Positions 28,948 through 55,939 of a stretch of 64,000 nucleotides of DNA are shown here, piece by piece. The notes under the pieces are model-generated. The model searched no databases. It was not told where the DNA came from and worked only from the letters and a program-made list of their open reading frames with translations. Position 1 is the first letter of the stretch. Each line of letters begins with the position of its first letter. The stretch is from Aquabacterium sp. (lineage in GTDB: Bacteria; Pseudomonadota; Gammaproteobacteria; Burkholderiales; Burkholderiaceae_C): contig NZ_JAQSDR010000027.1 of the NCBI RefSeq assembly GCF_029946005.1, forward strand, positions 1 to 64,000. The letters are read 5' to 3'. Both the position numbers and the translations under genes were made by a program.

Positions 28948-28956
28948 TGCGGCACC

Positions 28957-30784: not shown

Positions 30785-30823
30785 GGTGCACGTCCTTTCA
30801 GGTGTGTGCGTTGTGGTCAGACC

Positions 30824-30851: not shown

Positions 30852-30858
30852 AGTCGCT

Positions 30859-31272: not shown

Positions 31273-31341
31273 ATTCACCTCTTTGGTAGGTGGTTTGTGG
31301 TCAGGGCCCGTTTGGTGTTCCACCACCTTGCGGGCCCGCTA

Positions 31342-31360
31342 TTGCCTCGGAACTGCCGAG
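31342..31360 (-). other. hairpin after the antitoxin gene
   Basis: GCCTCGG and CCGAGGC form a 7-bp stem with a 5-nt loop, 52 bp after the antitoxin stop on the minus strand. No T run follows. It resembles the hairpin at 30824-30851 in position. Confidence 0.4.
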
Positions 31361-31411
31361 GCGCCAGACCTGAACCTCAGGCGGCGGTTTTTGTGCTGGT
31401 TGTGCCGATGC

Positions 31412-32070: not shown

Positions 32071-32106
32071 GTACTGTGTGAATTATACGTTACAGGTGTT
32101 GGTGGG

Positions 32107-36709: not shown

Positions 36710-37414
36710 CTACAAAAGCCCGGGGCTGCGCGGATCGAACAGTTTGGCCACGGCCGCCGCCAGCCCCCCGACCGGCAGGTCGATGAGGCTGCTCACCTGC
36801 ATGGCGCAGGCCTGATCGTTGACCTGAATGGTGGTGTGGCGTGGCTGCGGGTCCAGCCCCGCCTCGAAGGTGTGGGGCTCAATGGTCAGGCCACTGCCAA
36901 GGGCTTTCAGGCAGGCTTCCTTGCGCGTCCAGCAGCCAAAAAAGGCCGCCAGTTGCCGCTCGGCCGGGGTGCGCAAGAAGGCGGCTTGTTCGCTGGGGGT
37001 GAAGTGGCTTTGTGCCAGGGTGGCAGCATCGTTCAGGGGCTCGATGACTTCAATGTCCACGCCGATCGGGTGGCTGGCGCAGGTGCCGATCAGGGCCCAA
37101 CCGGCGCTGTGGCTCAGGTTGAAGTGGGGGCTGCCAAGCTGGGCCAGGCGTGGTTTGCCCTCGCTGCCGGTGTTGAATTGCAAGGAGGCCGGATTTTGGC
37201 CCGTGAGCTGGCCGAGGATCTGGCGCAAGGCCACATGGCTGGCCTGGTAACGGTGCGCGTGAACCTCAAAGCGAAATCGGGCCGCGCGGTCTGCTTCCTC
37301 CTCGCTGAGTACCGCATCGTTCCAGGCTTGAGGTGCGTGGTCCAGGTTGATGAGCCACAGCGCAATATCCAGGCCGTCCGGCGAGGGCAGGGCAACGATG
37401 TTGGACGCGATCAT
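36710..37414 (-). CDS. 4'-phosphopantetheinyl transferase (Sfp type)
   Basis: The start at 37414 gives 234 residues. It carries the Sfp-family motifs FNLSHSAGWALIG, GVDIEVIEP (metal-binding D and E) and FFGCWTRKEACLKALGSGL. It attaches phosphopantetheine from CoA to the serine of carrier domains and should activate the four carrier domains of the NRPS-PKS 4.5 kb away. Its ATG overlaps the stop of the methyltransferase gene by one base (TGATG), so the two are coupled. Confidence 0.93.
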   Translation of the reverse strand: MIASNIVALPSPDGLDIALWLINLDHAPQAWNDAVLSEEEADRAARFRFEVHAHRYQASHVALRQILGQLTGQNPASLQFNTGSEGKPRLAQLGSPHFNLSHSAGWALIGTCASHPIGVDIEVIEPLNDAATLAQSHFTPSEQAAFLRTPAERQLAAFFGCWTRKEACLKALGSGLTIEPHTFEAGLDPQPRHTTIQVNDQACAMQVSSLIDLPVGGLAAAVAKLFDPRSPGLL

Positions 37415-38211
37415 CAGTCCTTCAGCCGGAAGTACAGGCCGCTGTAGGTGTCGAAGCAATCCGCAGCGAAGCCCAGCGACATGAAGGTTCGCTCAGGCAC
37501 TTCCCAGGCGTCGATTTTTTCATAGCCGTGGTCTTCGATGGCCGAGATGAAGGCTTGTCGATTGAAGACATGGTGCGGCACGTAAGAGCCAAAACCGATG
37601 TTCTGGGTGGAGACAAAGGCGGAGGCTTCCGTCAGGGGCAGTTTGTTGAGCAAAAGGTGCCTGGGCTTGCGGTCGGCCCGGGCCAGCAGGGCGGGCAAGT
37701 TGTCTGTTTCCATGAACTCTATCGCGCCTGCGGCGATCCAGATGTCGCTGCTCAGCCAGTCGCCTGGCCATTCATCCGAAAAATGCAGACCATGCGCTTC
37801 GCGTGCCGCAGCGAGATCGCGGCCTTCCTGGATGAAGGCGGGCAGTTCGTGGACGCGCCATTCAAGCCCTGGTGGGTAGCTGAGGTAGTGCTGGTAGGCA
37901 TAGAACTGGTTGCCGATCGAGCCCCCGATGTCCAAAATCGTGGTGCTGCCCTCTTCGAGTGCCTTGCGCAGCCAAAACAGAACCGGGTAGTCAAAGGCCC
38001 AGATTCGGTGCGAGCGCTGATGAACATATTCATCGGTGAACTGATCGTGGCTGAACTCCGGGGACGGTGGAAGCCAGGCGCGTGCTTGCGCGAAGGTGCT
38101 GAAATGGCCGCTGTGGTAACCGATGCCGCGTTGGGTGAAATACTTGCGGAGGGCGCGCTTGCGTAGCCAGGCTCGGATCGGTGGCAGTCGTTTGAGGGTG
38201 GCGATTGGCAT
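37414..38211 (-). CDS. TIGR04325-type putative methyltransferase
   Basis: The 265-residue protein has an SAM-binding-like segment TTILDIGGSIGNQFYAYQHYL near residue 91, then WRVHELPAF and IWIAAGAIEFMETD. This matches the TIGR04325 putative methyltransferase family often seen near surface-polysaccharide genes. The methyl acceptor is unknown; in this context it could modify the NRPS-PKS product. Coupled to the PPTase gene. Confidence 0.78.
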   Translation of the reverse strand: MPIATLKRLPPIRAWLRKRALRKYFTQRGIGYHSGHFSTFAQARAWLPPSPEFSHDQFTDEYVHQRSHRIWAFDYPVLFWLRKALEEGSTTILDIGGSIGNQFYAYQHYLSYPPGLEWRVHELPAFIQEGRDLAAAREAHGLHFSDEWPGDWLSSDIWIAAGAIEFMETDNLPALLARADRKPRHLLLNKLPLTEASAFVSTQNIGFGSYVPHHVFNRQAFISAIEDHGYEKIDAWEVPERTFMSLGFAADCFDTYSGLYFRLKD

Positions 38212-38283
38212 GGTTGATCAGGCGTGGTACCGCAGGTTCATGGTTGACGAGTAAGGTACATTCCCAGCGCACAAAGGGACGGT

Positions 38284-39378
38284 ATGAAGAGATTTTTCCT
38301 GTTGGCACTGTTGGTGGTCGTGCTGGGTGCCAGCGCCGTGCTGCTGTCGATTGATGAGCGTTGGCAGCGTGGTCTGCACGAAGGTGGAAAGCCAAACGCC
38401 GTGGGCTTTGGCGTGCTGGGAGACTCCGACAGCCATGCCTACCATGACGATCTGAATTTCGGGGCGAACCACGCGGCCAGAGGTGGGGCCTTGAGGCAGC
38501 GCACCTGGCAGTGGACCGAGATCCTGGCGCACCTGAGATCCGACCAACTGGATCCTGGGCCCTGGGGCACCTGGGGCACGCGTTTTCGTCGCTTGTCCAT
38601 CTTGCGCGATGCGCTCGGCCTGGATGGGCGATTCCCGGTGAAGCAGGACTATCTGTACAACCAGGCCTATTCGGGCGCGGTCTGTGACAACCTCAACTCG
38701 ACGCAAACTGACCAGGCCGCTCGTTTGCTGACCGCCATGCAGCGGCAACCGGGGCGCTGGAAGGACGGCGTCGTCTTGATCCGCATCGGCACCAACGATT
38801 TTGGAACACAGGAAAGCCTGGAAGCCTTGTCGCACAATTCGGCGGCCCCGCGGCCCGTGGCGTTGATGGAGGCTTGTGTGCGCGAGATTCGCACGTCGGT
38901 GGCGCGTTTGCGCGAGGCTTATCCAACTTTGCGCATCGTCCTGGTCGGGATTTTCAACAATGCCGATTGGGCGCGCTTCCATGCGCACTGGCAATCGCCT
39001 CAAGCGATGGCCAACATCCATGAAGGCCTGGCGCGTTTCAACCATGGCTTGCAAATGATCGCGCAGGGCGATGACCGCATCGCTTTCTTTGATGACCAGG
39101 CGTGGTTTTCGGACTTGTGGGGCACCCGCCTGTCTTCTGGGAAGCCGGTCTACAAAACGGTGCGTTTCGGCACGCACTTTGATGTCACGAACACGGGTGG
39201 CGACGAGCCTCGGCATGCCACCGTGGCCGATGGCCATGCGGGAACGGTCTGGAACGCCTTGTGGGCGCAGTCCTTGGTGTCGCTGCTCAACCGCCATTTC
39301 GGGCTTGCTGTGCCACCCCTTCAGACCGATGAGTTGATCAACTTCATCGATGCGGATGGGCAATTGGGCATTCGTTGA
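38284..39378 (+). CDS. SGNH/GDSL hydrolase family protein
   Basis: The 364-residue protein has an N-terminal membrane anchor or signal (FFLLALLVVVLGASAVLL) and block I GVLGDSDSHAYHD with the likely nucleophile Ser (about residue 45). The block III pattern is DGVVLIRIGTNDFG, and VADGHAG late in the chain can give the Asp/His. It is probably a periplasmic esterase. AAAGGGA precedes the ATG. It is the only plus-strand gene within the cluster and may or may not belong to it. Confidence 0.8.
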   Translation: MKRFFLLALLVVVLGASAVLLSIDERWQRGLHEGGKPNAVGFGVLGDSDSHAYHDDLNFGANHAARGGALRQRTWQWTEILAHLRSDQLDPGPWGTWGTRFRRLSILRDALGLDGRFPVKQDYLYNQAYSGAVCDNLNSTQTDQAARLLTAMQRQPGRWKDGVVLIRIGTNDFGTQESLEALSHNSAAPRPVALMEACVREIRTSVARLREAYPTLRIVLVGIFNNADWARFHAHWQSPQAMANIHEGLARFNHGLQMIAQGDDRIAFFDDQAWFSDLWGTRLSSGKPVYKTVRFGTHFDVTNTGGDEPRHATVADGHAGTVWNALWAQSLVSLLNRHFGLAVPPLQTDELINFIDADGQLGIR

Positions 39379-39393
39379 CATGATCCGGGCAAG

Positions 39394-40263
39394 TCAAGCT
39401 TCGAAGCCACGCCATTGCCGGTAGCTTTGCCACATTTTTGATTTCACGGCATCTCGCCAGTCCGACTGGCCAATGCGCTTGGGCGTCAGGTTCACCTTGT
39501 TCAACTGTTTGCGCAGGATGTGGTTGAACGAGATCGCATTGCGCCAGCGAACACTCTCCTCGGTGTTGAAGATGATGGACATGGAAATCGAGACATCCTC
39601 AGGACCATTGTGCACATGGTGGCCGGCGATGAAGGGAATGTGCAGTGCTTCACCGGGGCTGAACTCGAAGGCGGTGGAGAACTCGTCGAGCTGGCTTGAC
39701 CAGGGCAGCTTGGTCTTTTCGCGAACCACATAAGCTTCGCGGTCCGGTTGTGACACGATGCGATCGTCCCACGGCGTGCCGACGGTCACCGTCTTGCTGC
39801 CCCGAAACTGCATCAGGAAGGTGGAGTACCGGTCGATGTGGAACGGGGTGATGCTGTTGGGTGAAGCGATGAACAGATAGAGCTGCGCCTGCAAGGGCAG
39901 GTCGCCCACGCCGCGAGTCTTCATGATCGAGGCCACCTCACTGCACAGCGCCTTGTACAGGTCTGCAAACGAGGGATCGACCTCGGGCGATCGGACCATG
40001 ATGTAAGAGTCCGAGGTGCGGATGGAGTCGATGGTTTCTTCCAGGGTGCGGTCTCTGGGTTTTTTCCTGAAGGTGGACTCGAAGTCATCGGCCACATCCA
40101 GCAAGCCTTTCGAATACATCACCTGTTGCTGAGGCAAGGTGGGCAGCACCCGTGCCAAGTTCTCCAGCGATAGCGCCGGATGCTCCAGCAATTGGTGGTG
40201 GAACTTGAACGGCGCCTTGTCCAGCAGGTCGCTTCGGATGTCTTCGGCAAAGCAGTTGGTCAT
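39394..40263 (-). CDS. JmjC/cupin-type Fe(II)/2-oxoglutarate-dependent oxygenase-like protein
   Basis: The 289-residue protein has a double-stranded beta-helix pattern: TPFHIDRYSTFLMQFRGSKTVTVG (H-x-D of the metal site), FSPGEALHIPFIAGHHVHNG (distal His) and SISMSIIFNTEES. This is the JmjC-like cupin group found near biosynthetic and polysaccharide genes. It probably hydroxylates a substrate, here perhaps the carrier-bound or released peptide. It lies 18 bp downstream of the alpha/beta hydrolase gene and ends the presumed NRPS operon. Confidence 0.75.
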   Translation of the reverse strand: MTNCFAEDIRSDLLDKAPFKFHHQLLEHPALSLENLARVLPTLPQQQVMYSKGLLDVADDFESTFRKKPRDRTLEETIDSIRTSDSYIMVRSPEVDPSFADLYKALCSEVASIMKTRGVGDLPLQAQLYLFIASPNSITPFHIDRYSTFLMQFRGSKTVTVGTPWDDRIVSQPDREAYVVREKTKLPWSSQLDEFSTAFEFSPGEALHIPFIAGHHVHNGPEDVSISMSIIFNTEESVRWRNAISFNHILRKQLNKVNLTPKRIGQSDWRDAVKSKMWQSYRQWRGFEA

Positions 40264-40281: not shown

Positions 40282-41115
40282 TCAATCGAATTGAGTGGCG
40301 AAGCGGCTCACGGACGCCATGAGATGGCGCTGCGCATTCAGCGTTGATGCAGTGTGGTCAACATCGGGCAGCAACTCGGTTGGGACGCTTGCCACGGCGC
40401 CATGGTCTTTGAATGTGTCGCGCCATTGATTCTGGTAGTTGTGAGTCCAGAACGCGCCGTTCGAATAGGCAATCTGAAGCCGAACCTGCTTGTTGAGCAG
40501 TGACTGGATGTCTGCCGCGAACTCGGCTTTCGATGGCTTCCCGTAGGGGTTGTCGTTCATGGGGGTTGGGGCGGGTTTGGCCCCCGAACTGGCGCCTGGC
40601 ATCCTCAGTATCCGTTTGCTCCAGCGGTGCAGCGTGGCGATGGGTTGCTGCTGGAGTTGCCGCATGGCGCGAACCCAGTAGGTGCGCGGCGTGGGATAGG
40701 CGTGGGTGTCCATCAGCCACAGGGCACGCAGGCGCTCATCCTTGAGCGCCGTGGCCACACCATGGTGCGCCCCGGAACAGATGCCGGCCAGGGCAAAGCT
40801 TTTGACAGGCGTGATCCTTTGCAGGTGATCCATGGCCGCCTGGAGGTCGGTGATGGCTTGCTGCTCGAACGATTGGGGGCGTTCGGGGCTGAGGCTGTCG
40901 CCTTGCCCAGACAGGTCGATGCGCAGCACGGTGAAGCCTTGCTCGGCCAGGTGCCGAGCCAGCTTGACGTTGATCCGGTGCGGGCCCATGCGGTGAATCA
41001 CCCCCGCGTTGAGCAGCAGGATCGCCGTGGATTTGGCCGCGGATGACTCTGGCGGAAGGGTCAGGGTGCCGGTCAGGCGGTCGCCATGGCCAAAGTTGAG
41101 GATGTTTTCGGTCAT
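40282..41115 (-). CDS. alpha/beta hydrolase with Cys nucleophile elbow (GICSGA)
   Basis: Start at 41115 overlaps the upstream hydrolase stop by 4 bp (ATGA). The 277-residue protein has VLRIDLSGQGDSLS, then the elbow FALAGICSGAHHG, where Cys takes the place of the usual Ser (or the Ser one position later acts), and a late PDVDHTAS that can supply His. It resembles exosortase-system hydrolase 1 and other biosynthetic-cluster hydrolases. It may release or edit NRPS-bound chains. Confidence 0.78.
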   Translation of the reverse strand: MTENILNFGHGDRLTGTLTLPPESSAAKSTAILLLNAGVIHRMGPHRINVKLARHLAEQGFTVLRIDLSGQGDSLSPERPQSFEQQAITDLQAAMDHLQRITPVKSFALAGICSGAHHGVATALKDERLRALWLMDTHAYPTPRTYWVRAMRQLQQQPIATLHRWSKRILRMPGASSGAKPAPTPMNDNPYGKPSKAEFAADIQSLLNKQVRLQIAYSNGAFWTHNYQNQWRDTFKDHGAVASVPTELLPDVDHTASTLNAQRHLMASVSRFATQFD

Positions 41116-41912
41116 GCCATGCCCCCGGTCGATGCCGCCACAAGCTGGCGCAAAAGATCGGGTGGTACCAGCGCCGAGCCACCGGCTTCTTCGGTGTGCC
41201 AGGCGACGCTGGTGCTGGTGGGGATGTGCTGCCAGCGCGTGCCCATGGCCTCGCATTTCGCAGACAGTGGGGCGGTGGCGCTGGTGTCTTCAGCACGTGC
41301 CAGGTGGATGCATGCTTCCTTGCACTGGGGATTCAGCTTGGTGATCGAGAGATCATTCATTTGCTTCAACCAGGCCTCACTGACGCCGAAGCCGATGATC
41401 TCGTCCCGCACCTGCGCGGAGGGCCGCTGGGCATGGACGACGGGCACGAAGGTTTCCCTGGCATGGGCCTCGCCGAGTTCCTTCAGGTAGGCCGGTCCGT
41501 TCAGGATAGGCTCCCAGAGGATCAGCCGGTCGGGCGGCTGATCGCAGAGCTCGGAGGCCATGATGGCCAGTGTGGCGCCCAGGCGGGTTCCCAGCCACGT
41601 GGTGTGTTGCGCGCGGGTGCGCAGTGTCAATTCGGCGTGCGCCATCAGGATGTCGTCACGCCACTGGGTGAGCGTGCCATCCTGGTCCGCGCCCGCCGAT
41701 TCACCGGTGCCAAAGTAATCGAAGCGCATGACATGCACACCTTGGCGGGTCAGGTGCTCGGCCAGCAGGCGGTGCAGGCGATGCGTGCGCACGGCTTCCT
41801 GCCCGAAAGGCGGGCACAGCAGCACCTGCGATGAGAGCCGCTGCGAGCTGGCGGGCGGGTGGTAGACACCATAGAGGCGGTGATCAAGGGGTCCGAAGAA
41901 AAATGGGTTCAT
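41112..41912 (-). CDS. alpha/beta hydrolase with non-canonical elbow (GTRLGA)
   Basis: Start MNPFFFGPLDHRLYGVYHPP at 41912 lies 25 bp after the NRPS stop and gives 266 residues. It has VLLCPPFGQEAVRTHR, MRFDYFGTGESAG and the elbow WLGTRLGATLAIMAS, in which no Ser or Cys occupies the nucleophile place. Such proteins (exosortase hydrolase 2-like) are often encoded with a second hydrolase. It might be structural, regulatory or use other chemistry. Coupled to the next hydrolase. Confidence 0.75.
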   Translation of the reverse strand: MNPFFFGPLDHRLYGVYHPPASSQRLSSQVLLCPPFGQEAVRTHRLHRLLAEHLTRQGVHVMRFDYFGTGESAGADQDGTLTQWRDDILMAHAELTLRTRAQHTTWLGTRLGATLAIMASELCDQPPDRLILWEPILNGPAYLKELGEAHARETFVPVVHAQRPSAQVRDEIIGFGVSEAWLKQMNDLSITKLNPQCKEACIHLARAEDTSATAPLSAKCEAMGTRWQHIPTSTSVAWHTEEAGGSALVPPDLLRQLVAASTGGMA

Positions 41913-41937: not shown

Positions 41938-44900
41938 TCATCGCCCAAGTAGGCGGTTGATCCAGCTGCTTTTGCCGGATGGAGCCTCATCGTTGGTGGC
42001 TGGCGATGCGTGGTCACCAGCCGCCGGTGCGGTGCCCAAGGGCGATGCTGTCGCTTTGGCGGCCTGCGGTGCGGCGAGCTGGCCCAGGTTCTCGAAGATC
42101 AGGCGCCGCACGCTCACGCTGACGCCGGTCCGGCGCCTGATTTCCGTGACGGCGCGCATGGCCAGCAGCGAATGGCCGCCCAGGTCGAAGAAGTTGTCAT
42201 CCAGGCCGATGTCTTGCTCGCCAATCAGTTCCTGCCAGACTTCGGCAATGGCCTTTTCCATGGGAGTGCTGGGGGCGGGTTTGCTGGACACCGGGGTGGT
42301 CTTGGGGACCGATGCCGAGGCCGATGGTGCGGCGAGTTGGCCGAGGTGTTCCAGATCGCCGGTGTGGTGGAGCACCACGCGGCGTGCAAGGAGCTGCGAT
42401 GCCAGGCTGGCGGGCATGGGCTCCCCCGCACAAAGGGCCACGAAGCCATCGTGCGCCGTCCACTCGGCATCGACCAGCGCTTGCCAGGTGGCCGATTGGG
42501 CCTGCATGACGTCGATCTCGTCGCCGAGCTGCTGTTGCAGCAGGCCCGGATTGCGGATCGCCTCTTCCGTGGCAAGCACCACCTCGGCGCCCACCAGCAA
42601 AGGCAGGTAGAAATCCACGACCGACATGCCACTGCCCAAGGCATTGGCAGCCAGTAGCCTTTGTCCTGGCCGCAGGCCCAGCTTTTGCTCCAGGCCCAGC
42701 AGCAGGTCGATCACATCACGGTGGGACCAGGGAATGTGCCGGGCTTGGCCTGCCGACCCGGATGAGCTGATCAGGCAGGCTGGATCTGTGGCGGTCGCGT
42801 CCAGGGATGGGTTCGGTGCAGGTGGGGTGGGGGCCTGGCTGCGCAGACGCCGTTCATCCAGGTCGAGCAACAAGGTCTTGTCTCGGGGCCAGGACAGCGC
42901 TTGCACGGAATCGGAGCGTCCGATGACCCAGCTCAGGCCAGCGTCCTGGATGGTGCTGGCGAGTTGTTCGCTGGCATCACGCGGCTCCAGTGCCACGCAG
43001 GCCGCGCCTGCCTGGAGAATGCCCAGCATGGCCGCCAGGAGATCCGGGCGACGGGGCAGGCAGACGCCGACGCACTGGCCTCGGCCAATGCCTTGAGCCC
43101 GCAGGAAATGGCTGACCTGGTTGGCTTGGGACCAGAGCTCGGCATGGCTGAGTGGTCGCTCCCCGGTCTGGCTGAGCGCAACGTTCTTGGACGCGGCGTG
43201 CGTGCGTTGGCGCAGCAGGTCGGGCAGCGTGGCGGGCGGGGCGGCGGGTGCTTTCTGTTCGCCGGGTGACAGGTCGTAGTCGCCCAGGGGGCGGTCGGGG
43301 TCTGTCACAACCTGACGCAGCAGTTTTTCAAGGCTGGCAGCGAACACGCCGACAGTCGCCGTGTCCAGCACATCCGCGTTGAAGGTGAAGACGAACTCGA
43401 TGTGGTTGCGGGTTTCAACACACCACAAGGCCAGGTCTTGCGCGGCGCCCAGCATGGGGGTGGGCATGCGCTGGTGATCGACATTGCCCCAGCGGGTGGT
43501 GCGCTCGCGCACGTCTTGGTAGGAGAAGGACACCTGGTGGATGGGCGGGCGGCTCATGTCCCTGGGAACCTGGAGTGCTTGAACCAGGTGGTCGAAGGGC
43601 ACGTCCGGGAAGGAGAAGGCGTCCACCACCTTGCGGTGGACCGAGGCCAGCCAGCTGGACAGGGACATGTCGGCCTGTGGCTGCATGCGCAAGGGCAGCA
43701 TGTTGACGAAGAAGCCCATCAGCGGTTCCAGCGCAGGCTGCTCACGGCCGCGCACCGGCGTGCCGATGACGAAGTCGTCTTGCTGGCTGACCCGGTGCAA
43801 GGCCAGCGCATAGGCGGCCAGCAGGGTGATGTACAGCGTGCGGCCTTGCTGCTGCGCCTGCGCGCGCAGTGCATCGGTGATGTCCTTGGCCAGGTTGAAC
43901 TGGAAGGAGCCGCCTCGGCCCGACATGAAAGGCGGGCGAGGGCGGTCCAGCGGCAATTCGATGGACGGGGGCAGCGGCGTGAGTTGTTCGCGCCAGTAGT
44001 CCAGTTGCCTTTTCAGTTCGGGGCCGCTCATCCAATCCTTGTGCCAAGCGGCGAAGTCGCCGTAGCTCACGGTCAACTTGGGCAGATTGGGCTCACGGCC
44101 TTCCAGGCAGGCGCTGTAAAGCTCGGGCAGGTCGACGTACAGCAGGTCAAAGGACCACGCGTCCCAGACCAGGTGGTGGGCCTGGAACAGCAGACCGTAC
44201 TCGTCGGGCGCCAAGCGGAACAGACGGGCGGTGAAGAGCGGGCCCTTCTCGACGTCGTAGGGGGTTTCGACCAGTTCGGCGATGACCTTGTTCATGGCCG
44301 GCTTGCGCTCGGCTTCCGGCAGGTGGCTGAAATCGTCGAAGGGCAGGAGGCTGAAATCCAGGCTCGGCAGGATGCGCTGGACATCACCCTCAGGGGTGCG
44401 TTCCACGACGGTGCGCAGCACGCTCTGGCGCTGAACCAGCAGTTGCCAGGCGCGGTTGAAGGCCTCCACATTCAGCGGGCCCAGCAGGCGGTGGCCGGTC
44501 GGGATGCTGTGCACCACGGTGCCGGGGTTCACGTTCTCCAGGAACCACACGCGCTCCTGCATTTGCGACAGGGGCGCGGTGGACTGGTCGGCCCGGATGG
44601 GGATGGTGTCTGCACCGGCACCGCTGGTCGGGGTGCTGGCGGGCTGGGCCTGTTTCAGCGCCACCAGGGCCTGGGCCAGCTTGGCGGGCGTCGGGTGGTC
44701 GAAGATCATCCGCAGGCCAGGGCGGTGCCCCAGCGCGCTGGCCAGGGCGGCGGACAGCTTGGCCGCCATCAGGGAATGGCCACCCTGCTCGAAGAAATGA
44801 TCGTGGTCCTGCAAACGGTCGCGTCCCAGCAGCTTGCCCATCTCCTGGGCCACGGTGTTGGTGGCCTCGGCGAGGGGGCCGGAGACCGCCATTACCTGGG

Positions 44901-47900
44901 TGGGTGCCGCCGTGGCGGTTTGCACCGAGGGGGCGCTGCCCTTGGAGGTGGGCAGCGGCAAGGCCTTGCGATCGATCTTGTTGTTGGGCAGCAGTGGCAG
45001 CTTGGGCAGGACGAGGATGGTGCGGGGTACCATGTAGTCCGGCAAGGTCTGGCGCAGGCTGGCCCTCAATGCGGCGCTGTCCAGGGCCGCGTTGCCTTGC
45101 GGCACCACGTAGCCGATGAGGGCCATGTCGCCTGGGCTCATTTCCGTGGCGGTCACCACGGCGCGGGCCACGTCTGCCTGGGCTTCGAGTTGAGCCTCGA
45201 TCTCTCCGAGCTCAATGCGGTAGCCCCGGATCTTCACCTGGAAGTCCATGCGTCCCAGGTGTTCCAGCTGCCCGTCTTCGCGCCAGCGGCCCAGGTCTCC
45301 GGTTCGGTAGATGCGTTGCGCCGGGCGCGGGCCCCACGGGAGCGTCACGAAGCGGTCCGAGGTGAGGTCGGGTCGTCCGTGGTATCCCAAGGCGACGCCA
45401 TCACCCCCGATGCAGATCTCGCCTTCCTGGCCAACCGTGACCGGCTGCATGGCCTCGTTCAGGATCCAGACCTGGGTGTTGTCGATCGGGCGGCCGATGG
45501 TGATCTTGGCGTTGGGGTCGCGCACGGGCGACAGCGTGGACCACACGGTGGTCTCCGTGGGGCCGTACATGTTCCAGACTTCAATGCCCTTGGCCAGCAA
45601 GGCGGTGGCCAGGGCCGGTGGCAAGGGTTCGCCGCCGACCAGGGCGCGGAAACCACGTGGTGGCTGCCAGCCCGCGTCCAGCAACAGGTGCCAGGTGGTG
45701 GGCGTGGCCTGCATCACGGTGACCTGATGTTGCGTGATCAGCGCCATCAGTGTTTCACCGTCCATGGCTTCATCGCGCGTGGCGAGCACCACGGTGCCGC
45801 CAGTGATCAGCGGGAGCAGCAGTTCCAGCACCGCGATGTCGAAGCTCAGGGTGGTCACGGCCAGCAGTCGATCGCCCGCCTTGAAACCAGGTTCCCGTTG
45901 CATGCTGCTCAGGAAATTGCAGACCGCGCTGTGCTGCACGGCGACACCCTTGGGTCGGCCTGTGGAACCCGAGGTGTAGATCACGTAGGCGGCCGCCTGC
46001 GTGTCGGTCATCGTGGGCAAGGCGGTGTCGCTGGCCGTGGCCACGAGTGCGGCATCGTCGTCGAGCCGCAATTGTGTGGCGCGCGGCAGGCCGCTGGCGT
46101 CGGCGCAGCTTGAATGCGTCACCACCAGGCCCAGATTGGCGTCTTCGGCCATCATCTTCAGGCGCTCGGTGGGGAAGCCGGGGTCCATCGGCACATAGGC
46201 GGCACCGGTCTTGAGCACCCCGATCAGGGCTGGCAGCAGGTGGGTGCTGCGCGGCAGGCTGATGCCCACGCGCTGTCCGGGGCCCGCGCCACGGGCTTGC
46301 AGAACGCGGGCGATCTGATTAGATTGGGATTCGAGGGCGCCGTAGGTCAGGTGGCCTTCAGCGGTGATGACCGCTGTGGCGTTGGGCGTCAGCTTGGCCT
46401 GGCGCGACACCCAGGCTTCGATGCGAGCCTGAGGATCCAGGGCGCGATCCGTTCGGTTCCAATCCAGCAGGCGCGGATCAAGCTGGACAGGGACGGTGGT
46501 CGATCCTGACGACAACAGGGCGATGAGTTGGTCAACCAGCTGTTGCGCCCGGCCCAGGCTCAGGTATTCGCTGCTGTGGTGGAGGTCGAGGGTCAGTGCA
46601 TCGGCTTGTTCGTAGAAGTTGAAAAATAGCTCGCTGAGCAGACCGGCTTTGCGGCCCTCGTGCATCTGCGCTTTCAACGGTGCCCAGCCTGACAGGTCCA
46701 CCTTCGGGTTGAGGTTGAAGTAAATGCTGCTCAAGGGCGGTCGGCTGCCTTCGGCCTGCAGACCGAGCGCGCGCGCCGCGATGCCCTGGGTCATGAGGGG
46801 GTGTTCCATCGCGTCCATGAGCGCGCTCTTGACGCGGCCAATGCGCGCCTTGAAAGGCTCGTCGGCGGGCAGTGTCAGGCGAACGGGCAGGTCCAGGACG
46901 CCGTCCGCCAGCAGCGGCGCGTGGCGCTGTAGGCTTTGGGCCGCATACGGGATGCTGACGACGATGTCCCTCTGGCCGCTTTCCTGCGCGATCAGCTCTG
47001 CCACGGCGTTCAGCAGCCATTGGAAAAGGGTGGCGCCTTGCGCCTTGGCCTGCTCGCGCAATGTGGCCAGCTTGACGCCGTCCAGGCGGGCCCTGACGGT
47101 GTCGGCCACGAAGGTGCGCGGACCCGTGGGGGTCTTGTCACCCAGCGACACGGGCTGGGGCAGCGCTTGCAGCACCTGCTTCCAGTGCGCGATGCTGGCT
47201 TGGCCATCCGCACCGTTGAAGCGCGCCTGTTCGCCCACCGCGAATGACAAGGGCGAGCCGGGCTCGGAGGCCCAGGCAGGTGTCAATCCTGAGGCCCGCG
47301 CGCGGTAAGCCTGCGCCAGCTCCACGTTGAAAACGCTGGAAGCCCATCCGTCGAAGATGAGGTGGCTGGCCACGACGTGGACCACCACGCGGCCATCGGC
47401 CAGATGGAGGATGCTGGCGCGGGCCAGGGGCGCCTTGTCGAGAGGGAGGTCAATCCCGTTGGCTTGGCGGCAGTGCTGGTCCAGCGCCTGATCGCTGTCG
47501 GCTTGGGCCCGCAAATCGACCTCGGCCACGGGCACCACGGACTGAGGCTCGATGATCTGCCGTGGTTCATCCAGGTCGAAGCGCAGTTTGAAGGCGGTGT
47601 GCCGTTGCAAGACATCTTGCAGGGCCGACTTCAATGCCGCGGCATCCACCTGACCGGTCAAGGTGACGCAGAAAGACTCATTGAGTGCGCGCCGCGCCGC
47701 CGGGTCGTAACTCGCGGCCAGCCAGCGTTCGGTCTGCCCGGGTGTCAAGGGCGCTTCAAGAAGTGCCGTGGCGATCTTGGTTGCAGAGCCCTCGCGCAAG
47801 GGAATGAAACCCAGCGCGGTCAGCTCATCCAGCGCCTTGGTGAAGACCTCGACGATGCGGTCGGTGTGCGCATCGGTCATGGCCTCGGTGACGAAGTGGC

Positions 47901-50900
47901 CGAACTGTTCATACAGGTGCAGGCCGTGGAAGCGGGCCAGGTAATAGAACAGGCTGATGTTGGGCACGCCATCGTCCCACTGCAGGCGCCACAAGGATGC
48001 GCAATGCACGGCCTTGACCGGGGCGCCGCGCTGAGCGAAGGCCGCGTTCAGGCGATCAATCAGGCGCTGTGTCCGGTCATTGAGCTGGCGGTAGAACTCA
48101 CGACCGCCGCGCTTGAGGTGCAGCAAGGTGGCGTGTGCCGCAGCCAATGCCAGCGGGTGGCGCACGAAGGTGCCCGCGAAGTAGGTCACGCCAGCTTCGG
48201 GGTAGGAGTCGTCACCGTATTGCCAGTGGCCACCGTCCAGGGCATCCAGCCAGTTGGCGTTGCCAGCGATGGCGGCGAAGGGCAGGCCGCCGCCGATCAC
48301 CTTGCCGTAGGTGGCGATGTCGGCGCGCACACCGTAGAACTCTTGCGCACCACCCGGGGCCACGCGGAAGCCGGTGACCACTTCGTCGAAGATCAGGGCG
48401 CAGCCCGCCTGGTCGGCGATCTCGCGCAGGGATTTCACGAACTCGCGTGGTTGCAGCGTGGGGTACTTGTTCTGGATCGGCTCGGTCATGATGGCCGCCA
48501 GCTCGGTGCCGCGTTCGCGCAGCACGCGCAGCGAGTCTTCGCTGTTCCAATCCAGCACGAGGATGTTCTCAACCGAATTGGCCAGGATGCCCGGGGCGGC
48601 GGACAGCGAGCGCAATTGCTTAGTACCGCGCACGATCACTTCATCAAAGATGCCGTGGTACGAGTTGGTGAAAATGGCGATGGTCTTGCGGCCGGTCACC
48701 GTGCGCGCGATGCGCATGGCGCCCATCACGGCTTCGGAGCCCGTGTTGCAAAAGCCCACGCGCTCCATGCCGGTGAACTCGGAGATCAGGTTGGCGACCT
48801 CGGCGGCCAGTGGGTGCTGCGGGCCCACTTCCAAGCCCAATTGCAGCTGCTCGCTGATCGCGGCAATGACGCTCTCGGGTTGGTAACCCAGCAGGTTGCC
48901 GCCAAAGCACGAGAGCAGGTCGATGTACTCGTTGCCGTCCAGATCCCAAAGGTTGACGCCCTTGGAGCGGTTGACCACGATGGGGTAGACCAGGTCTTTC
49001 CACAGTGGGTTGAAGCCCGTGACCACGCGCGGGTCGGCCATGGCCTTGCGGTTTTTTTGGCTGAAGCTCTTGGACTGGCCGGTGCGCTGGTTGTAGCGTT
49101 GGATGAAGTCGGTCACCCACTGCATTTGGGTGGGTGTGAAATCGGTTTGGGCCTGCAAGGTGATGCGGGCCGAGGCGCCAAAGGGCTTTTCCAGCAGCGA
49201 GGTCTTGGAGGGCTGGGCGAGTTCAGCAGGGGCGGCCACCACATTGGCCGGGGCCACGCTTTGACCCGACAACACGGCCAACTGCTGGGCCATCAATTGC
49301 ATCTGTTGCTGGATGAGCTGGTGCACGGCATCGCCCGCCACCGAGGGCTGGTGCGCCGTGAAGACCGCCTGGGCCATCGGTGCTGGCTGCGCAGCCACCG
49401 CGCTGACGGGTGGTGGTGCGAACTTGTCGGCGGGCAGCTCTGCATCCAGAAACTGAACCAGTTTGGCCAGGGTGTCCAGGTCTTCCATCAAGCGGCGAAA
49501 GCGCAGCTTGATGCCGAACACACGCTCCAGCTCCAGGGTCGCCTGGGTCAATGACAAGGAATCCAGGTCCAGGTTGACGAACGTGGTGTCGCGGTCCACC
49601 TCGCTGGCAGACATGCCGGAGACGTCACTGAAGATGCGCGTGAGTTCTTGTTCAAGGCGGGGTAGGCGGCTCATTGGACGGGCATCCTCTTGGATCAGGG
49701 AAACTGGGACGACCACAGCAGTGGGCTTGCGAGCGAACCAATGGGATTCGCCCCGGAATGGGTAGGCGGGCAGTGCAATGCGGCGTGCGTTGGCGGGCAC
49801 AGGCCAGGCCAACTCGACCCCGGCGCACCACAAGGCACCCAGGCCCTGCAGCGCACGCACGGCAGGTTCGCCCGGGTCTTGGGCCGGACCCAGCAAGGGC
49901 ACGATGCGAGGCACCGCATTCTGGGCGGTGCGGTGCTGGCGCAGCAGGGCGGTGAGCGCCTGGCCTGGGCCGACCTCGACAAAGACGGTGGCATCGCCTT
50001 GGTCCAGTTCTGCCTGCACGGCTCGGCTGAACTGAACGGTGGCGCGCACCTGGCGGGCCCAGTACTGCGGGTCGGTGGCCTCACTGTCTTGCAGCAAGGC
50101 GCCGCTGACGCATGAGTACATCGGGATCGACGGGGCATGCAGCGTAGCGTGGCCGAGTGCTTGTGCCACGCGCGGCAAGGCGCCGTCCATGCTGACGCTG
50201 TGGAAGGCGTGGGACACCTTCAAGCGTGTCGTGCTGATGTCCTGGGCTTCCAGCCGCGTGGCAAAGTCCGTGATGGTGTCAAACGGGCCCGCCACCACGG
50301 TGAGCGTGGGCGCGTTGGCGGCGGCGATTTCCACGCCCGGCGGCATCAGGCTGCGCACCAGGTCCGCGCTGCTGCGCACGGCCAACATGGCGCCGGCAGG
50401 CTGGTCGAACATGGCTTGACCGCGTGCAATGACGGCGCTCATGGCATGGTCCACCGACAGCACGCCGGCGTGGCAGGCGGCAGCGTACTCGCCAATGCTG
50501 TGGCCAATCATGGCATCGGGCCGGATGCCCAGGCTGTCCAGCCAGGCGGTCAGCGCATGTGACACGCAGAACAGCGCGGGCTGAGCATGGCGCGTTTCTG
50601 CCAGCTTGGCGGCGGCTTCTGCGTCGGTGGGCAAGGCTTGAACCAGCCATTGGCGAAGGTCCATGGCCAGGGCCTCAGGCGCGGCGGCCAGGCATCGGTC
50701 AAACGCCTCACGGAAGGCGGGCACTTCGTCGTACAACTGACGCGCCATGCCAGGGTGCTGGGAGCCTTGTCCAGGGAACAGAAAGACCACCCGGGGTTTG
50801 ACCAGCGCGGCTTGCGCTGTCTTGACCTGGCGCAGTGAGGCCACCGCTTCAGCCCCATTGCGCGCCACGACGGCCACCCGGTGTCCCATGCGCTGGCGGC

Positions 50901-53900
50901 CTCGTGACAGGGTTGCCATGGCGTCTTGCAAGGAGGTGTCGGGGTGCCGCTCCAGGTGGTCAGCCAGGTCCCGGGCTCGCCGCAAGACAGCTTCGGCGGT
51001 CTTGGCCGACAAGGGCAGCAGGCTGAGCTGATCGGCCTGGCCCAAGGATGCGGGCTGGGGCGATTCCTCCAGCACCACGTGGGCATTGGTGCCACCCACA
51101 CCAAACGAGCTGACGGCAGCGCGGCGAACTTGAGGCCCGCGCGGCCAAGCGCGCGCTTCGGCCTGCACCGTGAAAGGCGTGTTGGCCAAGTCGATTTGCG
51201 GATTGGGCCGGCGGTAGTGCAGCGTGCCCGGGATGACCTCGCGGTGCATCGACAGTGTGGCCTTGATCAAGCCCAGCACACCTGCGGCGGCCACCGTGTG
51301 GCCCAAGTGGCCCTTGATGGAGCCGATCTGGCAGAACTGTTTGTCGCTGGTGTCGCGAGACCAGGCCCGGCTCAGGGCCGCGATCTCGATGGGGTCGCCC
51401 AGCGAGGTGCCGGTGCCATGCGCCTCGACATAACCGATGCTGCGCGCATTGATGCCCGCGTGGTCCAGGGCCATGCCGATGGCCTCGGCCTGGCCACTGA
51501 CGCTGGGTGCCGTGAAACTGGCCTTGTCCCCGCCATCGTTGTTGATGCCCACGCCCTTGATGACCGCGTACACCGTGTCGCCATCGGCCAGGGCTTGCTT
51601 GAGGCGCTTGAGCACGACCACGCCACCGCCGCTGGCAAAGACGGTGCCCGAGGCCTCGGCGTCAAACGGTCGACAGCGTCCGTCGGACGACTCCATGCTG
51701 CCTTCCACATACAGGTAGCCACCCGGCTGAGGCACGACCACGCTGACGCCTCCGGCCAGGGCGACATCACATTGACCTTGGGCGAGCGCGTGCCAAGCCT
51801 GCGTGATGGCGACCAGCGACGTGGAGCAGGCGGTGTGGATGGACACGGCCGGGCCGCGCAGGTTCAGACGGTTGGCCGCGCGCGTGGCGACGTAATCCTT
51901 CTCATTGGCCAGCATGGTGGCGAACTCGCCGTAACGCTGAATCAAGTCGGGTTGCTCGGCCCGCATGGCGGGCAGGTAGGTGTTGTTGGCGGTGCCGGCG
52001 TACACGCCGATGCGGTCCTGGCCTCGGCTCGGGTCAATGGCGGCGTTTTCAAGTGCCGACCAGCACAGCTCCAGGAACAGGCGCTGCTGGGGGTCCAGCA
52101 CGGTGGCTTCGCGGGCGGAGATGCCGAAGAACGCCGCGTCGAAGCGGTCGGCGTCTTCCAGCACCCCGCGGGCTGCCACGAAGTTGGGCCGGTTGCGCAC
52201 TTCTTCGGGCACCGACGGATCGACCTCGTGCGGGGCAAAGCGGCGGATGCTTTCGCGGTCGGCCAGCAGGTTGGCCCAGAAGGTGTCCAGGTCGTGGGCG
52301 TTGTCGGCCCGCACTGACATGCCGATGATGGCGATGCCATCCTGGTCTTGCGGACCGGTGGGCACATGGCGCCGGCTTGGGGCGGCAGCGCCTTGCAGGC
52401 TTTGGGCCATGCCAGCGATGGTGGGCCGGTCATACACCTCGGCCACCGACAGGTTCAAACCCAGCTGCTTGATGCGGCTCACGAAGCGCATCACCAGCAG
52501 CGATCGGGCACCTGCGTCGAACACATTGCTGTCGTCGGCCAGGTCGTTCAAGCCCAGCAGTTCTTGCCAGACGCTGCGCAGGCGCTCGGTCACCGACAGC
52601 GTGTTGGGATCAAGGGCTGAGGATGCTTCAAGGACGGGCAGCGGCAAGCTGCGCCGGTCTATCTTGCCGCTGGGTGTGGTGGGCAGTTTGTCGAGCGCGA
52701 TGAAGCGCACGGGGATCATGTAGTCGGGCAGGCGGTCGCGCAGCCATTGCCGCCAGGGCGCCAACAGTTGGGCCAGCGCCGGACTGCCGGGGCGCAACAC
52801 CACGTGGGCCACCAGCTGGCGGCCGGAGCCGGGTACATCGGGCGCGGTCACGGCCGCGTCCTGGACGGACTCGTGCGCCATCAGGGCCAATTCGATGTCG
52901 CCGGGTTCGATGCGGAAGCCGTCCACCTTCAGTTGCTGGTCGATCCGGCCCTGGTAGGTGAGCACATCCTCGGGGTCGCGGCTGACCAGGTCGCCGGTGG
53001 CGTACCAGCGGCCGGGCAGGCCGGCGGGGCCGTCCAGAAAGCGTTCGGCGCTCAACTGGGCCTGGCCCAGGTAGCCGTGGGCCAGGGTGTCGCCACCCAG
53101 CAGCAATTCGCCGGTGTCGCCGGTGCTGAGCGTGCCAGTGTCGGGGTCGCGCAGGGCCAGCAGCACATGGGGCAAGGCCGTGCCGATGGGTGGGATGCCA
53201 AGCCAAGAAGCAGGCGGGCCGCTCAGCTCGAAGGCGGTGACCACGTGGCTTTCGGTGGGGCCATAGTGGTTGTGCAGTGCTGCCTGTGGCAGGCGCTCAA
53301 ACAGGGCGCGGATGGTGGGGGTGACCTGCAATTGTTCGCCGGCACTGACCACTTCACGCAGGCTCAACGGCGGCTTGCCTTCGCTGTGCGCGTCTTCATC
53401 GGCCTGGGCCAGCATCTGCAAGGCCACATAGGGCAGGAAAATGCGTTCAACGCGCTGCGTTTGCAGTGCCTCGCGCAGCAAGGCTGGATCGCGCCGGTGG
53501 CTGTCCGGGATCAACACCAGCGTGCCGCCGCAAGCCAGGGTGGAGAAGATCTCCTGGAAATGCACGTCGAAGGACAAGGGGGCGAACTGCAGGGTTCGGG
53601 CCGCTTGCCCCAGGCGGGGATGCTGGGCATGCCACTGGATCAGATGGCGCAAGGGCAGGTCGCCCATGGCCACCCCTTTGGGCCGCCCGGTGGAGCCTGA
53701 GGTGAACAGCACGTAAGTCAGGTCGCTGCTGGCGGCATGGGGCATGCCTTGCGAAGGCGCGACGGCGTCCAGGCTGGGCATGGGGCCGACCAGCTCTTTC
53801 AGAGCCGACAAGGCGCCGGGTTCACCCACCACCACCCGGGGTTGCGCGTCAGCCAACATGGCCTGCAGTCGATCAGCCGGGTAGCTCAGGTCCAAGGGCA

Positions 53901-54144
53901 CATAGGCCACGCCCGCTTCGACGGCGGCCAGGATGGCGATCACGGTGTCGGGCGACCTTGTGGCGGCGATGGCAATGCGGTCACCGGGGACCAGCCCGGC
54001 CTCGCGCAAAAGGTCGGCCTGCTGGCGAACCTTGAGCGACAGGGCTGCGTAACTCAGCCGAATTCCCGAATACTCCAGGGCGATGCCGTCGGGGTTTTTG
54101 TCAGAGGCGGCGCGCAACCAGTGGCTCAGGGCCGGTGGGGTCAT
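41938..54144 (-). CDS. hybrid NRPS-PKS megasynthase with aminotransferase domain
   Basis: 4,068 residues from the ATG at 54144 (AGGA five bases upstream; 54180 is an alternative). Domains by approximate residue: A1 1-500 (FTSGSTGRPKG; code D-V-Q-F-V-A-H-V-V-K, proline-like); T1 (Ser about 547, DAGARSLL); KS 600-1025 (Cys 773, HTACSTS; His about 907 and 948); AT 1115-1415 (GHSIGEYAA; HAFH, malonyl); ACP (Ser 1529); class III aminotransferase 1660-2110 (PLP Lys 1948); C1 2125-2540 (SHLIFDG); A2 2555-3070 (code D-I-L-Q-L-G-M-V-W-K, glycine-like); T2 (Ser about 3123); C2 3190-3615 (HHLVWDA); broken A3 3630-3960; T3 (Ser 3992). No KR, DH, E or TE is present. The chain should be a beta-amino acyl-glycine. 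Confidence 0.93.
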   Translation of the reverse strand: MTPPALSHWLRAASDKNPDGIALEYSGIRLSYAALSLKVRQQADLLREAGLVPGDRIAIAATRSPDTVIAILAAVEAGVAYVPLDLSYPADRLQAMLADAQPRVVVGEPGALSALKELVGPMPSLDAVAPSQGMPHAASSDLTYVLFTSGSTGRPKGVAMGDLPLRHLIQWHAQHPRLGQAARTLQFAPLSFDVHFQEIFSTLACGGTLVLIPDSHRRDPALLREALQTQRVERIFLPYVALQMLAQADEDAHSEGKPPLSLREVVSAGEQLQVTPTIRALFERLPQAALHNHYGPTESHVVTAFELSGPPASWLGIPPIGTALPHVLLALRDPDTGTLSTGDTGELLLGGDTLAHGYLGQAQLSAERFLDGPAGLPGRWYATGDLVSRDPEDVLTYQGRIDQQLKVDGFRIEPGDIELALMAHESVQDAAVTAPDVPGSGRQLVAHVVLRPGSPALAQLLAPWRQWLRDRLPDYMIPVRFIALDKLPTTPSGKIDRRSLPLPVLEASSALDPNTLSVTERLRSVWQELLGLNDLADDSNVFDAGARSLLVMRFVSRIKQLGLNLSVAEVYDRPTIAGMAQSLQGAAAPSRRHVPTGPQDQDGIAIIGMSVRADNAHDLDTFWANLLADRESIRRFAPHEVDPSVPEEVRNRPNFVAARGVLEDADRFDAAFFGISAREATVLDPQQRLFLELCWSALENAAIDPSRGQDRIGVYAGTANNTYLPAMRAEQPDLIQRYGEFATMLANEKDYVATRAANRLNLRGPAVSIHTACSTSLVAITQAWHALAQGQCDVALAGGVSVVVPQPGGYLYVEGSMESSDGRCRPFDAEASGTVFASGGGVVVLKRLKQALADGDTVYAVIKGVGINNDGGDKASFTAPSVSGQAEAIGMALDHAGINARSIGYVEAHGTGTSLGDPIEIAALSRAWSRDTSDKQFCQIGSIKGHLGHTVAAAGVLGLIKATLSMHREVIPGTLHYRRPNPQIDLANTPFTVQAEARAWPRGPQVRRAAVSSFGVGGTNAHVVLEESPQPASLGQADQLSLLPLSAKTAEAVLRRARDLADHLERHPDTSLQDAMATLSRGRQRMGHRVAVVARNGAEAVASLRQVKTAQAALVKPRVVFLFPGQGSQHPGMARQLYDEVPAFREAFDRCLAAAPEALAMDLRQWLVQALPTDAEAAAKLAETRHAQPALFCVSHALTAWLDSLGIRPDAMIGHSIGEYAAACHAGVLSVDHAMSAVIARGQAMFDQPAGAMLAVRSSADLVRSLMPPGVEIAAANAPTLTVVAGPFDTITDFATRLEAQDISTTRLKVSHAFHSVSMDGALPRVAQALGHATLHAPSIPMYSCVSGALLQDSEATDPQYWARQVRATVQFSRAVQAELDQGDATVFVEVGPGQALTALLRQHRTAQNAVPRIVPLLGPAQDPGEPAVRALQGLGALWCAGVELAWPVPANARRIALPAYPFRGESHWFARKPTAVVVPVSLIQEDARPMSRLPRLEQELTRIFSDVSGMSASEVDRDTTFVNLDLDSLSLTQATLELERVFGIKLRFRRLMEDLDTLAKLVQFLDAELPADKFAPPPVSAVAAQPAPMAQAVFTAHQPSVAGDAVHQLIQQQMQLMAQQLAVLSGQSVAPANVVAAPAELAQPSKTSLLEKPFGASARITLQAQTDFTPTQMQWVTDFIQRYNQRTGQSKSFSQKNRKAMADPRVVTGFNPLWKDLVYPIVVNRSKGVNLWDLDGNEYIDLLSCFGGNLLGYQPESVIAAISEQLQLGLEVGPQHPLAAEVANLISEFTGMERVGFCNTGSEAVMGAMRIARTVTGRKTIAIFTNSYHGIFDEVIVRGTKQLRSLSAAPGILANSVENILVLDWNSEDSLRVLRERGTELAAIMTEPIQNKYPTLQPREFVKSLREIADQAGCALIFDEVVTGFRVAPGGAQEFYGVRADIATYGKVIGGGLPFAAIAGNANWLDALDGGHWQYGDDSYPEAGVTYFAGTFVRHPLALAAAHATLLHLKRGGREFYRQLNDRTQRLIDRLNAAFAQRGAPVKAVHCASLWRLQWDDGVPNISLFYYLARFHGLHLYEQFGHFVTEAMTDAHTDRIVEVFTKALDELTALGFIPLREGSATKIATALLEAPLTPGQTERWLAASYDPAARRALNESFCVTLTGQVDAAALKSALQDVLQRHTAFKLRFDLDEPRQIIEPQSVVPVAEVDLRAQADSDQALDQHCRQANGIDLPLDKAPLARASILHLADGRVVVHVVASHLIFDGWASSVFNVELAQAYRARASGLTPAWASEPGSPLSFAVGEQARFNGADGQASIAHWKQVLQALPQPVSLGDKTPTGPRTFVADTVRARLDGVKLATLREQAKAQGATLFQWLLNAVAELIAQESGQRDIVVSIPYAAQSLQRHAPLLADGVLDLPVRLTLPADEPFKARIGRVKSALMDAMEHPLMTQGIAARALGLQAEGSRPPLSSIYFNLNPKVDLSGWAPLKAQMHEGRKAGLLSELFFNFYEQADALTLDLHHSSEYLSLGRAQQLVDQLIALLSSGSTTVPVQLDPRLLDWNRTDRALDPQARIEAWVSRQAKLTPNATAVITAEGHLTYGALESQSNQIARVLQARGAGPGQRVGISLPRSTHLLPALIGVLKTGAAYVPMDPGFPTERLKMMAEDANLGLVVTHSSCADASGLPRATQLRLDDDAALVATASDTALPTMTDTQAAAYVIYTSGSTGRPKGVAVQHSAVCNFLSSMQREPGFKAGDRLLAVTTLSFDIAVLELLLPLITGGTVVLATRDEAMDGETLMALITQHQVTVMQATPTTWHLLLDAGWQPPRGFRALVGGEPLPPALATALLAKGIEVWNMYGPTETTVWSTLSPVRDPNAKITIGRPIDNTQVWILNEAMQPVTVGQEGEICIGGDGVALGYHGRPDLTSDRFVTLPWGPRPAQRIYRTGDLGRWREDGQLEHLGRMDFQVKIRGYRIELGEIEAQLEAQADVARAVVTATEMSPGDMALIGYVVPQGNAALDSAALRASLRQTLPDYMVPRTILVLPKLPLLPNNKIDRKALPLPTSKGSAPSVQTATAAPTQVMAVSGPLAEATNTVAQEMGKLLGRDRLQDHDHFFEQGGHSLMAAKLSAALASALGHRPGLRMIFDHPTPAKLAQALVALKQAQPASTPTSGAGADTIPIRADQSTAPLSQMQERVWFLENVNPGTVVHSIPTGHRLLGPLNVEAFNRAWQLLVQRQSVLRTVVERTPEGDVQRILPSLDFSLLPFDDFSHLPEAERKPAMNKVIAELVETPYDVEKGPLFTARLFRLAPDEYGLLFQAHHLVWDAWSFDLLYVDLPELYSACLEGREPNLPKLTVSYGDFAAWHKDWMSGPELKRQLDYWREQLTPLPPSIELPLDRPRPPFMSGRGGSFQFNLAKDITDALRAQAQQQGRTLYITLLAAYALALHRVSQQDDFVIGTPVRGREQPALEPLMGFFVNMLPLRMQPQADMSLSSWLASVHRKVVDAFSFPDVPFDHLVQALQVPRDMSRPPIHQVSFSYQDVRERTTRWGNVDHQRMPTPMLGAAQDLALWCVETRNHIEFVFTFNADVLDTATVGVFAASLEKLLRQVVTDPDRPLGDYDLSPGEQKAPAAPPATLPDLLRQRTHAASKNVALSQTGERPLSHAELWSQANQVSHFLRAQGIGRGQCVGVCLPRRPDLLAAMLGILQAGAACVALEPRDASEQLASTIQDAGLSWVIGRSDSVQALSWPRDKTLLLDLDERRLRSQAPTPPAPNPSLDATATDPACLISSSGSAGQARHIPWSHRDVIDLLLGLEQKLGLRPGQRLLAANALGSGMSVVDFYLPLLVGAEVVLATEEAIRNPGLLQQQLGDEIDVMQAQSATWQALVDAEWTAHDGFVALCAGEPMPASLASQLLARRVVLHHTGDLEHLGQLAAPSASASVPKTTPVSSKPAPSTPMEKAIAEVWQELIGEQDIGLDDNFFDLGGHSLLAMRAVTEIRRRTGVSVSVRRLIFENLGQLAAPQAAKATASPLGTAPAAGDHASPATNDEAPSGKSSWINRLLGR

Positions 54145-54298
54145 GACATTCCTGCTGCTGGGTATTTGTTGTGTGGCCATGGGCACCGTCGTCGTCAACC
54201 AAAAGAACGCCGATGACACCAAGCCGACCCGAGGGGCGCGCATGTTTCAAGGGGTATCTGGAAAATCATACGACAGCAAGGGTTATTCATACCATCCC

Positions 54299-55917: not shown

Positions 55918-55939
55918 TTAAAAAAATAGAGGAAAAAGC

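Follow-up and report, generated by a model that had tools for sequence, protein, structure and literature searches.

An NRPS-PKS megasynthetase of Aquabacterium sp. predicted to aminate an amino-acid-started beta-keto chain, and the apparently undescribed family to which it belongs

In MycA, the mycosubtilin/iturin synthetase, an aminotransferase (AMT) follows KS, AT and ACP domains and aminates a beta-ketoacyl thioester built on a fatty-acid starter. Extension of proline by one two-carbon unit is found in the dolaproine unit of dolastatin 10, in which the ketone becomes an O-methylated hydroxyl. Glycine is activated by module 2 of the linear gramicidin synthetase LgrA and proline by TycB1 of the tyrocidine synthetase; both are different assembly lines, which are not known to contain a KS or AMT. 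The exosortase A-associated hydrolases 1 and 2 are represented in NCBIfam by TIGR03100 and TIGR03101, which are listed there as 'hypoth_equivalog' families.

We analyzed a stretch of 64,000 nucleotides from Aquabacterium sp. (contig NZ_JAQSDR010000027.1), here called the window. It encodes an NRPS-PKS megasynthetase with an in-line class-III aminotransferase of the same kind as the AMT of MycA (PDB 6kfm). Unlike MycA with its fatty-acid starter, this synthetase is predicted to start from an amino acid, the code of its loading A domain being proline-like. Fatty-acyl starter loading, as in the iturin/mycosubtilin family proper, was not found, the N-terminal domain being an A domain with the code DVQFVAHVVK. 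Like dolaproine, the product would contain proline extended by two carbons, whereas the ketone is predicted to become an amine here. The A1 and A2 domains show likeness to A domains of LgrA and TycB. Two hydrolases encoded next to the synthetase resemble the exosortase A-associated ones as an adjacent alpha/beta hydrolase pair with a Cys elbow in hydrolase 1, but differ by scores below the family cut-offs, by their megasynthetase partner and by a hydrolase 2 without nucleophile. Literature searches among open-licence papers found no description of this synthetase system.

The synthetase is encoded by a single, uninterrupted reading frame on the minus strand, which is open over 12.3 kb and offers three ATG codons as start candidates in the window sequence (Table 1). 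A first-pass annotation had placed the gene at 41938..54144. The reading frame is real; 54144 corresponds to Met34, one of the three possible starts, and the frame remains open to 54243. Pfam and the translation confirmed the domain order proposed there, A-T-KS-AT-ACP-AMT-C-A-T-C-A*-T, with three AMP-binding, two Condensation and four PP-binding domains and one each of KS, AT and class-III aminotransferase. The absence of a KR, also claimed before, was borne out by the Pfam table of the synthetase, and DH, ER and TE families are not among its Pfam matches. One chain holds KS, malonyl-type AT, ACP and AMT in that order. The translation shows the KS cysteine motif TACSTSL, the AT motifs GHSIG and HAFH, the latter of which we take to be malonyl-specific, the PLP-lysine motif TYGKVIGGG in the AMT, and a carrier serine in all four T/ACP domains.

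Table 1. Coordinates of the synthetase, its domains and other features of the window
Feature	Position	Strand	Remarks
NRPS-PKS megasynthetase	41938..54243	-	4101 aa; start 54243, 54180 or 54144
A1	52609..54081	-	code DVQFVAHVVK, proline-like
T1 carrier	52384..52596	-	GARSL serine
KS	51034..52338	-	Pfam
AT	49864..50796	-	Pfam; malonyl-type motif HAFH
ACP	49444..49671	-	Pfam; carrier Ser
AMT	47794..49146	-	Pfam, profile match; mycosubtilin-type aminotransferase
C1	46474..47754	-	active-site motif SHLIFDG
A2	44959..46410	-	code DILQLGMVWK, glycine-like
T2 carrier	44644..44886	-	carrier Ser
C2	43252..44586	-	active-site motif HHLVWDA
A3*	42334..43236	-	decayed and truncated adenylation domain, 0/5 core motifs
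T3 terminal carrier	42064..42276	-	LGGHSL; then tail of ~41 residues and stop; no TE
Hydrolase 2 homolog (TIGR03101-like)	41112..41911	-	elbow GTRLG, no Ser/Cys; ORF open from 42017, start by eye
Hydrolase 1 homolog (TIGR03100-like)	40282..41115	-	elbow GICSG with Cys; start overlaps hydrolase 2 stop (ATGA)
Cupin_8/JmjC-like protein	39394..40263	-	HID and later His look like metal site (by eye)
GDSL/SGNH esterase	38284..39378	+	N-terminal signal-like segment (by eye)
Methyltransferase, TIGR04325 family	37414..38211	-	profile match
Sfp-type 4'-phosphopantetheinyl transferase	36710..37459	-	profile match
CecR-like TetR regulator, membrane-fusion protein, RND pump	55228-60192	+	directly upstream of synthetase locus
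XrtB-type exosortase operon	5824-8966	+	FxDxF PEP-CTERM protein, EpsD-like isomerase, exosortase B, B-type EpsI
Phage-type integrase	32107-33468	-	in possible integrative element
DnaB-like helicase	25769-27136	-	in possible integrative element

In the scheme that we propose, A1 would load proline onto T1, and KS and AT would add one malonyl unit to give 3-oxo-3-(pyrrolidin-2-yl)propanoyl-ACP. The AMT would convert the ketone into an amine, giving a beta-amino acyl thioester with a vicinal diamine, which C1 would link to glycine loaded by A2 on T2. The C2-A3*-T3 module would transfer the chain to T3, where the acceptor residue would probably have been loaded by A2 or a different A domain, given that A3 seems dead. 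Hydrolase 1 with its Cys elbow and the pseudo-enzyme hydrolase 2 would move the chain from T3 to an amine or hydroxyl of an acceptor, which, judged from the relatives, would most likely be a sugar of a surface polysaccharide. The peptide would then be a basic exopolysaccharide decoration, and the cupin protein, the methyltransferase and the GDSL esterase would provide tailoring steps. This full scheme, with a product that decorates a surface polysaccharide, is our best single reading, held with somewhat less than even confidence; it is preferred because of a recurring polysaccharide neighbourhood and the hydrolase pair.

The synthetase is a member of a widespread, apparently undescribed family. 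A database search scored 1662 candidates that share most words with it, 1616 of which were related, and the best 120 of these 1616, chosen by whole-protein similarity, were examined. The core KS-AT-ACP-AMT-C1 is present in all 121 proteins, including that of the window. A genome scan gave 145 relatives, of which 80 were retained as loci. These 80 were found in Burkholderiales (Aquabacterium, Hydrogenophaga, Rhizobacter, Caldimonas and others) and in Lysobacterales (Dokdonella, Rhodanobacter, Dyella, Luteimonas, Pseudoxanthomonas and others); those from Bacteroidetes and a few others are about 51-55% identical. The domain order is frequently distributed over two or three genes in Lysobacterales and Bacteroidetes. 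A strong AMT match occurs in 10 of 150 genomes drawn evenly from the family of the window's organism, its own genome included, and likewise in 5 of 185 genomes drawn from the class of a Dokdonella, this Dokdonella included, so the distribution is patchy. Relatives in Bacteroidetes (L061, L063, L069; L074, L079, L080) retain A-T-KS-AT-ACP-AMT with other A codes: the Thr-like DFWNIGMVHK in Pedobacter, or DVQIFSQVVK followed by DALWLGGTFK, which is Val-like.

Hydrolase 2 and hydrolase 1 are alpha/beta hydrolases encoded directly after the synthetase. Their scores of 101.3 bits to TIGR03101 and 75.5 bits to TIGR03100 lie under the NCBIfam cut-offs of 202.75 and 168.45, respectively. With locus flanks of up to 10 kb, both hydrolases are present in 39 of the 65 loci that exceed 20 kb. 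The pair is missing from 15 loci of Bacteroidetes or other distant groups, all that were scored of these, which counts against the polysaccharide scheme. The other 11 of the 26 misses are proteobacterial, among them Dyella lutea (L089), where the pair is present further off. The evenly drawn genomes were checked on stretches around the AMT, some of them one-sided, in eight of nine genomes (G050 was left out); both hydrolases occur in five (G041, G066, G067, G100, G152) and were not seen in three (G078, G118, G185). In the alignment, the elbow of hydrolase 1, GxCS[GA], has Cys in all 44 rows with letters (three gaps), and that of hydrolase 2 has neither Ser nor Cys in 43 of 43 rows (one gap). 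A TIGR03100 member over the cut-off in L096 also has a Cys elbow, GLCDG. As the window synthetase has no TE, the strongest candidate for releasing or transferring the chain is hydrolase 1. The cupin protein, like the hydrolase pair, often accompanies the synthetase in relatives.

In a Rhodanobacteraceae MAG (L092), TviC-like and TviB-like UDP-sugar enzymes, an EpsB_2 transferase and glycosyltransferases adjoin the synthetase, and an XrtA-type chain-length determinant and an XrtA-type amidotransferase lie beside it; several of these polysaccharide-gene matches are under the equivalog cut-offs. Exosortase and EpsB_2 (TIGR03013, over cut-off) were followed in the genomes of 36 of the 80 loci, mostly with long flanks, as well as in the genome of the window. 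Among 22 Lysobacterales-type genomes, each with one EpsB_2, 20 have it on the same contig as the AMT and no more than 21 kb from it; the two exceptions (G017, G033) have it on another contig. These 22 were a non-blind choice, made once polysaccharide genes near some loci were known, and they include one genome (G023) with no title more specific than Proteobacteria. The choice did not take in eight Lysobacterales-type or unplaced proteobacterial loci (L031, L034, L035, L041, L042, L044, L046, L052), of which five sit on contigs no longer than about 12 kb. The chance of finding EpsB_2 within this range is about 1% per genome (one gene in 2.4-5.6 Mb), with related genomes not being independent.

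The link is less strong among 22 Burkholderiales-type genomes, 13 of which came in through the loci or as the own genome (G008 is titled Rhodocyclaceae) and nine from the even draw: EpsB_2 is at most 21 kb from the AMT in four (G005, G007, G041, G066) and at most 46 kb in seven (G002, G006 and G152 in addition). The corresponding number for the evenly drawn genomes alone is two of nine within 21 kb. In G118 and G185, about 87 and 102 kb separate the two genes, and in the other 13, own included, EpsB_2 is far off, on other contigs or without a match over cut-off. In the window's genome, the EpsB_2 over cut-off sits on another contig (C37). An exosortase was found in 13 of 13 Burkholderiales-type genomes; in the other 24, it was weak in four and not found in 20, and it is therefore not part of the conserved unit. 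The window's own XrtB-type exosortase operon was not counted as linked to the synthetase, since the two are separated by about 34 kb that include housekeeping genes and an integrative element. This possible element spans about 21700-33468 on the minus strand, between the housekeeping genes and the synthetase region. An anti-phage role of five neighbouring genes was dismissed, there being no PADLOC match. An open reading frame of 387 aa at 38218-39381 (minus strand) was not accepted as a gene, as it has no family match and the GDSL esterase lies on the opposite strand.

The product might instead be a free, small proline-derived diamino-acyl-glycine peptide, perhaps cyclised or metal-binding through its vicinal diamine, for which the adjacent RND pump could serve as exporter. 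Such a diffusible product is nearly as likely as the polysaccharide decoration, because of the flanking TetR/RND operon and because no EpsB_2 lies on the window contig. The operon of TetR regulator, membrane-fusion protein and RND pump is found directly upstream in the window and at the same place in L001, L005, L007 and L008. A diffusible metabolite would also be consistent with the lack of EpsB_2 within 46 kb in 15 of the 22 Burkholderiales-type genomes, with a patchy occurrence as is seen for secondary metabolites, and with a thioesterase domain (PF00975) in some of the best 120 of the 1616 relatives. However, the RND neighbourhood was seen only in close relatives, whereas the exopolysaccharide neighbourhood recurs across Lysobacterales-type genomes, in which the AMT is about 53 to 78% identical to the query. 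We are more reserved still about the family as a whole: that it makes vicinal-diamine peptides from proline, malonate and glycine as decorations of surface polysaccharide rather than free metabolites, transferred by a Cys-hydrolase and pseudo-hydrolase related to the pair of exosortase-type exopolysaccharide systems and diversified by repeated changes of the last module, is possible but doubtful.

The building blocks were predicted from the specificity codes. A hand reading and the alignment agree on the A1 code, and across the family the pattern DVQ[FY][VI]AHVVK fits 113 of the 117 first A domains: DVQFVAHVVK (54), DVQFIAHVVK (29), DVQYVAHVVK (26) and DVQYIAHVVK (4). The remaining four are DVQFVAHVCK, DVQFIAHVCK, DVQFVAQVVK and DFWSFGGV-K. 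Table 2 of PMC2866473 gives DVQFIAHVXK ('ituri002') and DVQYIAHVTK ('Syp-M2') as proline codes, and the A1 code differs by one residue from the former, the iturin proline code, which confirms the proline-like starter code noted in the first-pass annotation. A1 is predicted to activate proline. The A2 code was read by hand, and the same string is found in L001, which is 94% identical in the AMT. The best solved-structure match of both A1 and A2 is LgrA, with a score that sums both A domains in chains with two of them, and tyrocidine synthase 2 is also among the matches. Glycine as the second unit is supported by the glycine-like code and by the match of A2 to LgrA.

The AMT profile is far closer to the mycosubtilin AMT 6kfm (E 4.7e-141) than to the next kind of enzyme, glutamate-1-semialdehyde aminomutase (E 6.8e-65), and the AMT can be aligned to 6kfm over 447 of 451 profile positions, with the PLP-lysine motif aligned. 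Owing to this close match, the AMT is predicted to convert the beta-ketoacyl-ACP into a beta-amine, in agreement with the iturin-type amination suggested earlier. A chain of proline, malonate, amine and glycine is the best reading of the assembly line because of the A1 code, the AMT profile match and the A2 code. From the earlier interpretation, the order, the amination and the proline-like and glycine-like codes have been upheld; the proline-malonate-beta-amine-glycine product stands as a prediction. It is unlikely that the architecture is right and the structure wrong, with A1 loading another amino acid or the beta-keto intermediate cyclising before amination. Codes are predictive, and their reading depends on the alignment register; against such a deviation stand the near uniformity of the A1 codes, close to the published proline codes in the table cited above, and the retention of the AMT in all 121 proteins, relatives having been picked by whole-protein similarity.

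The third adenylation domain of the window is truncated and matches none of the five core-motif patterns; its remaining part aligns to A2 with 38% identity over 268 positions. For the family, 116 of the 121 proteins were counted, after exclusion of two truncated ones and of three in which the last T could not be placed. Of the five core motifs, the A domain that precedes the last carrier shows four or more in 38 proteins and one at most in 78; among these 78 domains, 68 are decayed and 10 essentially absent. On a quick tree of KS and AMT, the decayed-A3 label changes 26 times, at least 17 of the changes being forced by well-supported branches. Alternatively, this pattern could stem from recombination that swapped the 3' ends. 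The last C domain retains HHxxxD[GA] in 116 of 116 (12 end in A, including that of the window), and the serine pattern of the last carrier is matched in 102 and unmatched in 14. In 13 of the 121 proteins, for example P0010, a C-T module without A domain follows the glycine module and precedes the final C-A-T, and its carrier must be loaded from elsewhere. We infer that the last C and T domains remain functional, with T3 being charged by a different A domain, of which A2 is the simplest choice. With intact motifs in the last C-T module after glycine, the chain may carry one more residue. The rule that A3 loss is tolerated only if A2 has the same glycine code was not supported, as L005, L007 and L008 have a Ser-like A2 and no recognised A3, which also speaks against loading by A2 in its simplest form. 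Many synthetases of the family end in a short, basic, amphipathic-looking segment (WINRLLGR, WLSRWLGR, LMKRLARLVQRA), which is perhaps a docking element.

Decay of the synthetase toward non-function without any product, to which the truncated and motif-less A3 of the window might point, is very improbable, as at least four of five motifs are present in A1 in 115 of 116 and four or five in A2 in 116 of 116 proteins, the last C motif is kept throughout, some clades share a decayed A3 throughout (for example nine rows including the window's protein) and the reading frame is open over its full length.

If the polysaccharide reading is true, bacteria of freshwater and soil would use modular peptide-polyketide assembly to produce a component of their polysaccharide matrix. 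We found no description of such a use of an NRPS-PKS in open-licence papers, and the terms 'nonribosomal' and 'polyketide' are absent from the main text of papers on floc formation and Rubrivivax biofilm (PMC9850573, PMC3684757). It would also suggest a role for the exosortase-associated hydrolases 1 and 2, namely acyl transfer from a carrier protein. The repeated decay of an A domain, with the C motif before it intact and a carrier after it, raises the question of carrier cross-loading. Should the product be diffusible, beta-amination with an amino-acid starter would still define a large family for which a diamine scaffold is predicted.
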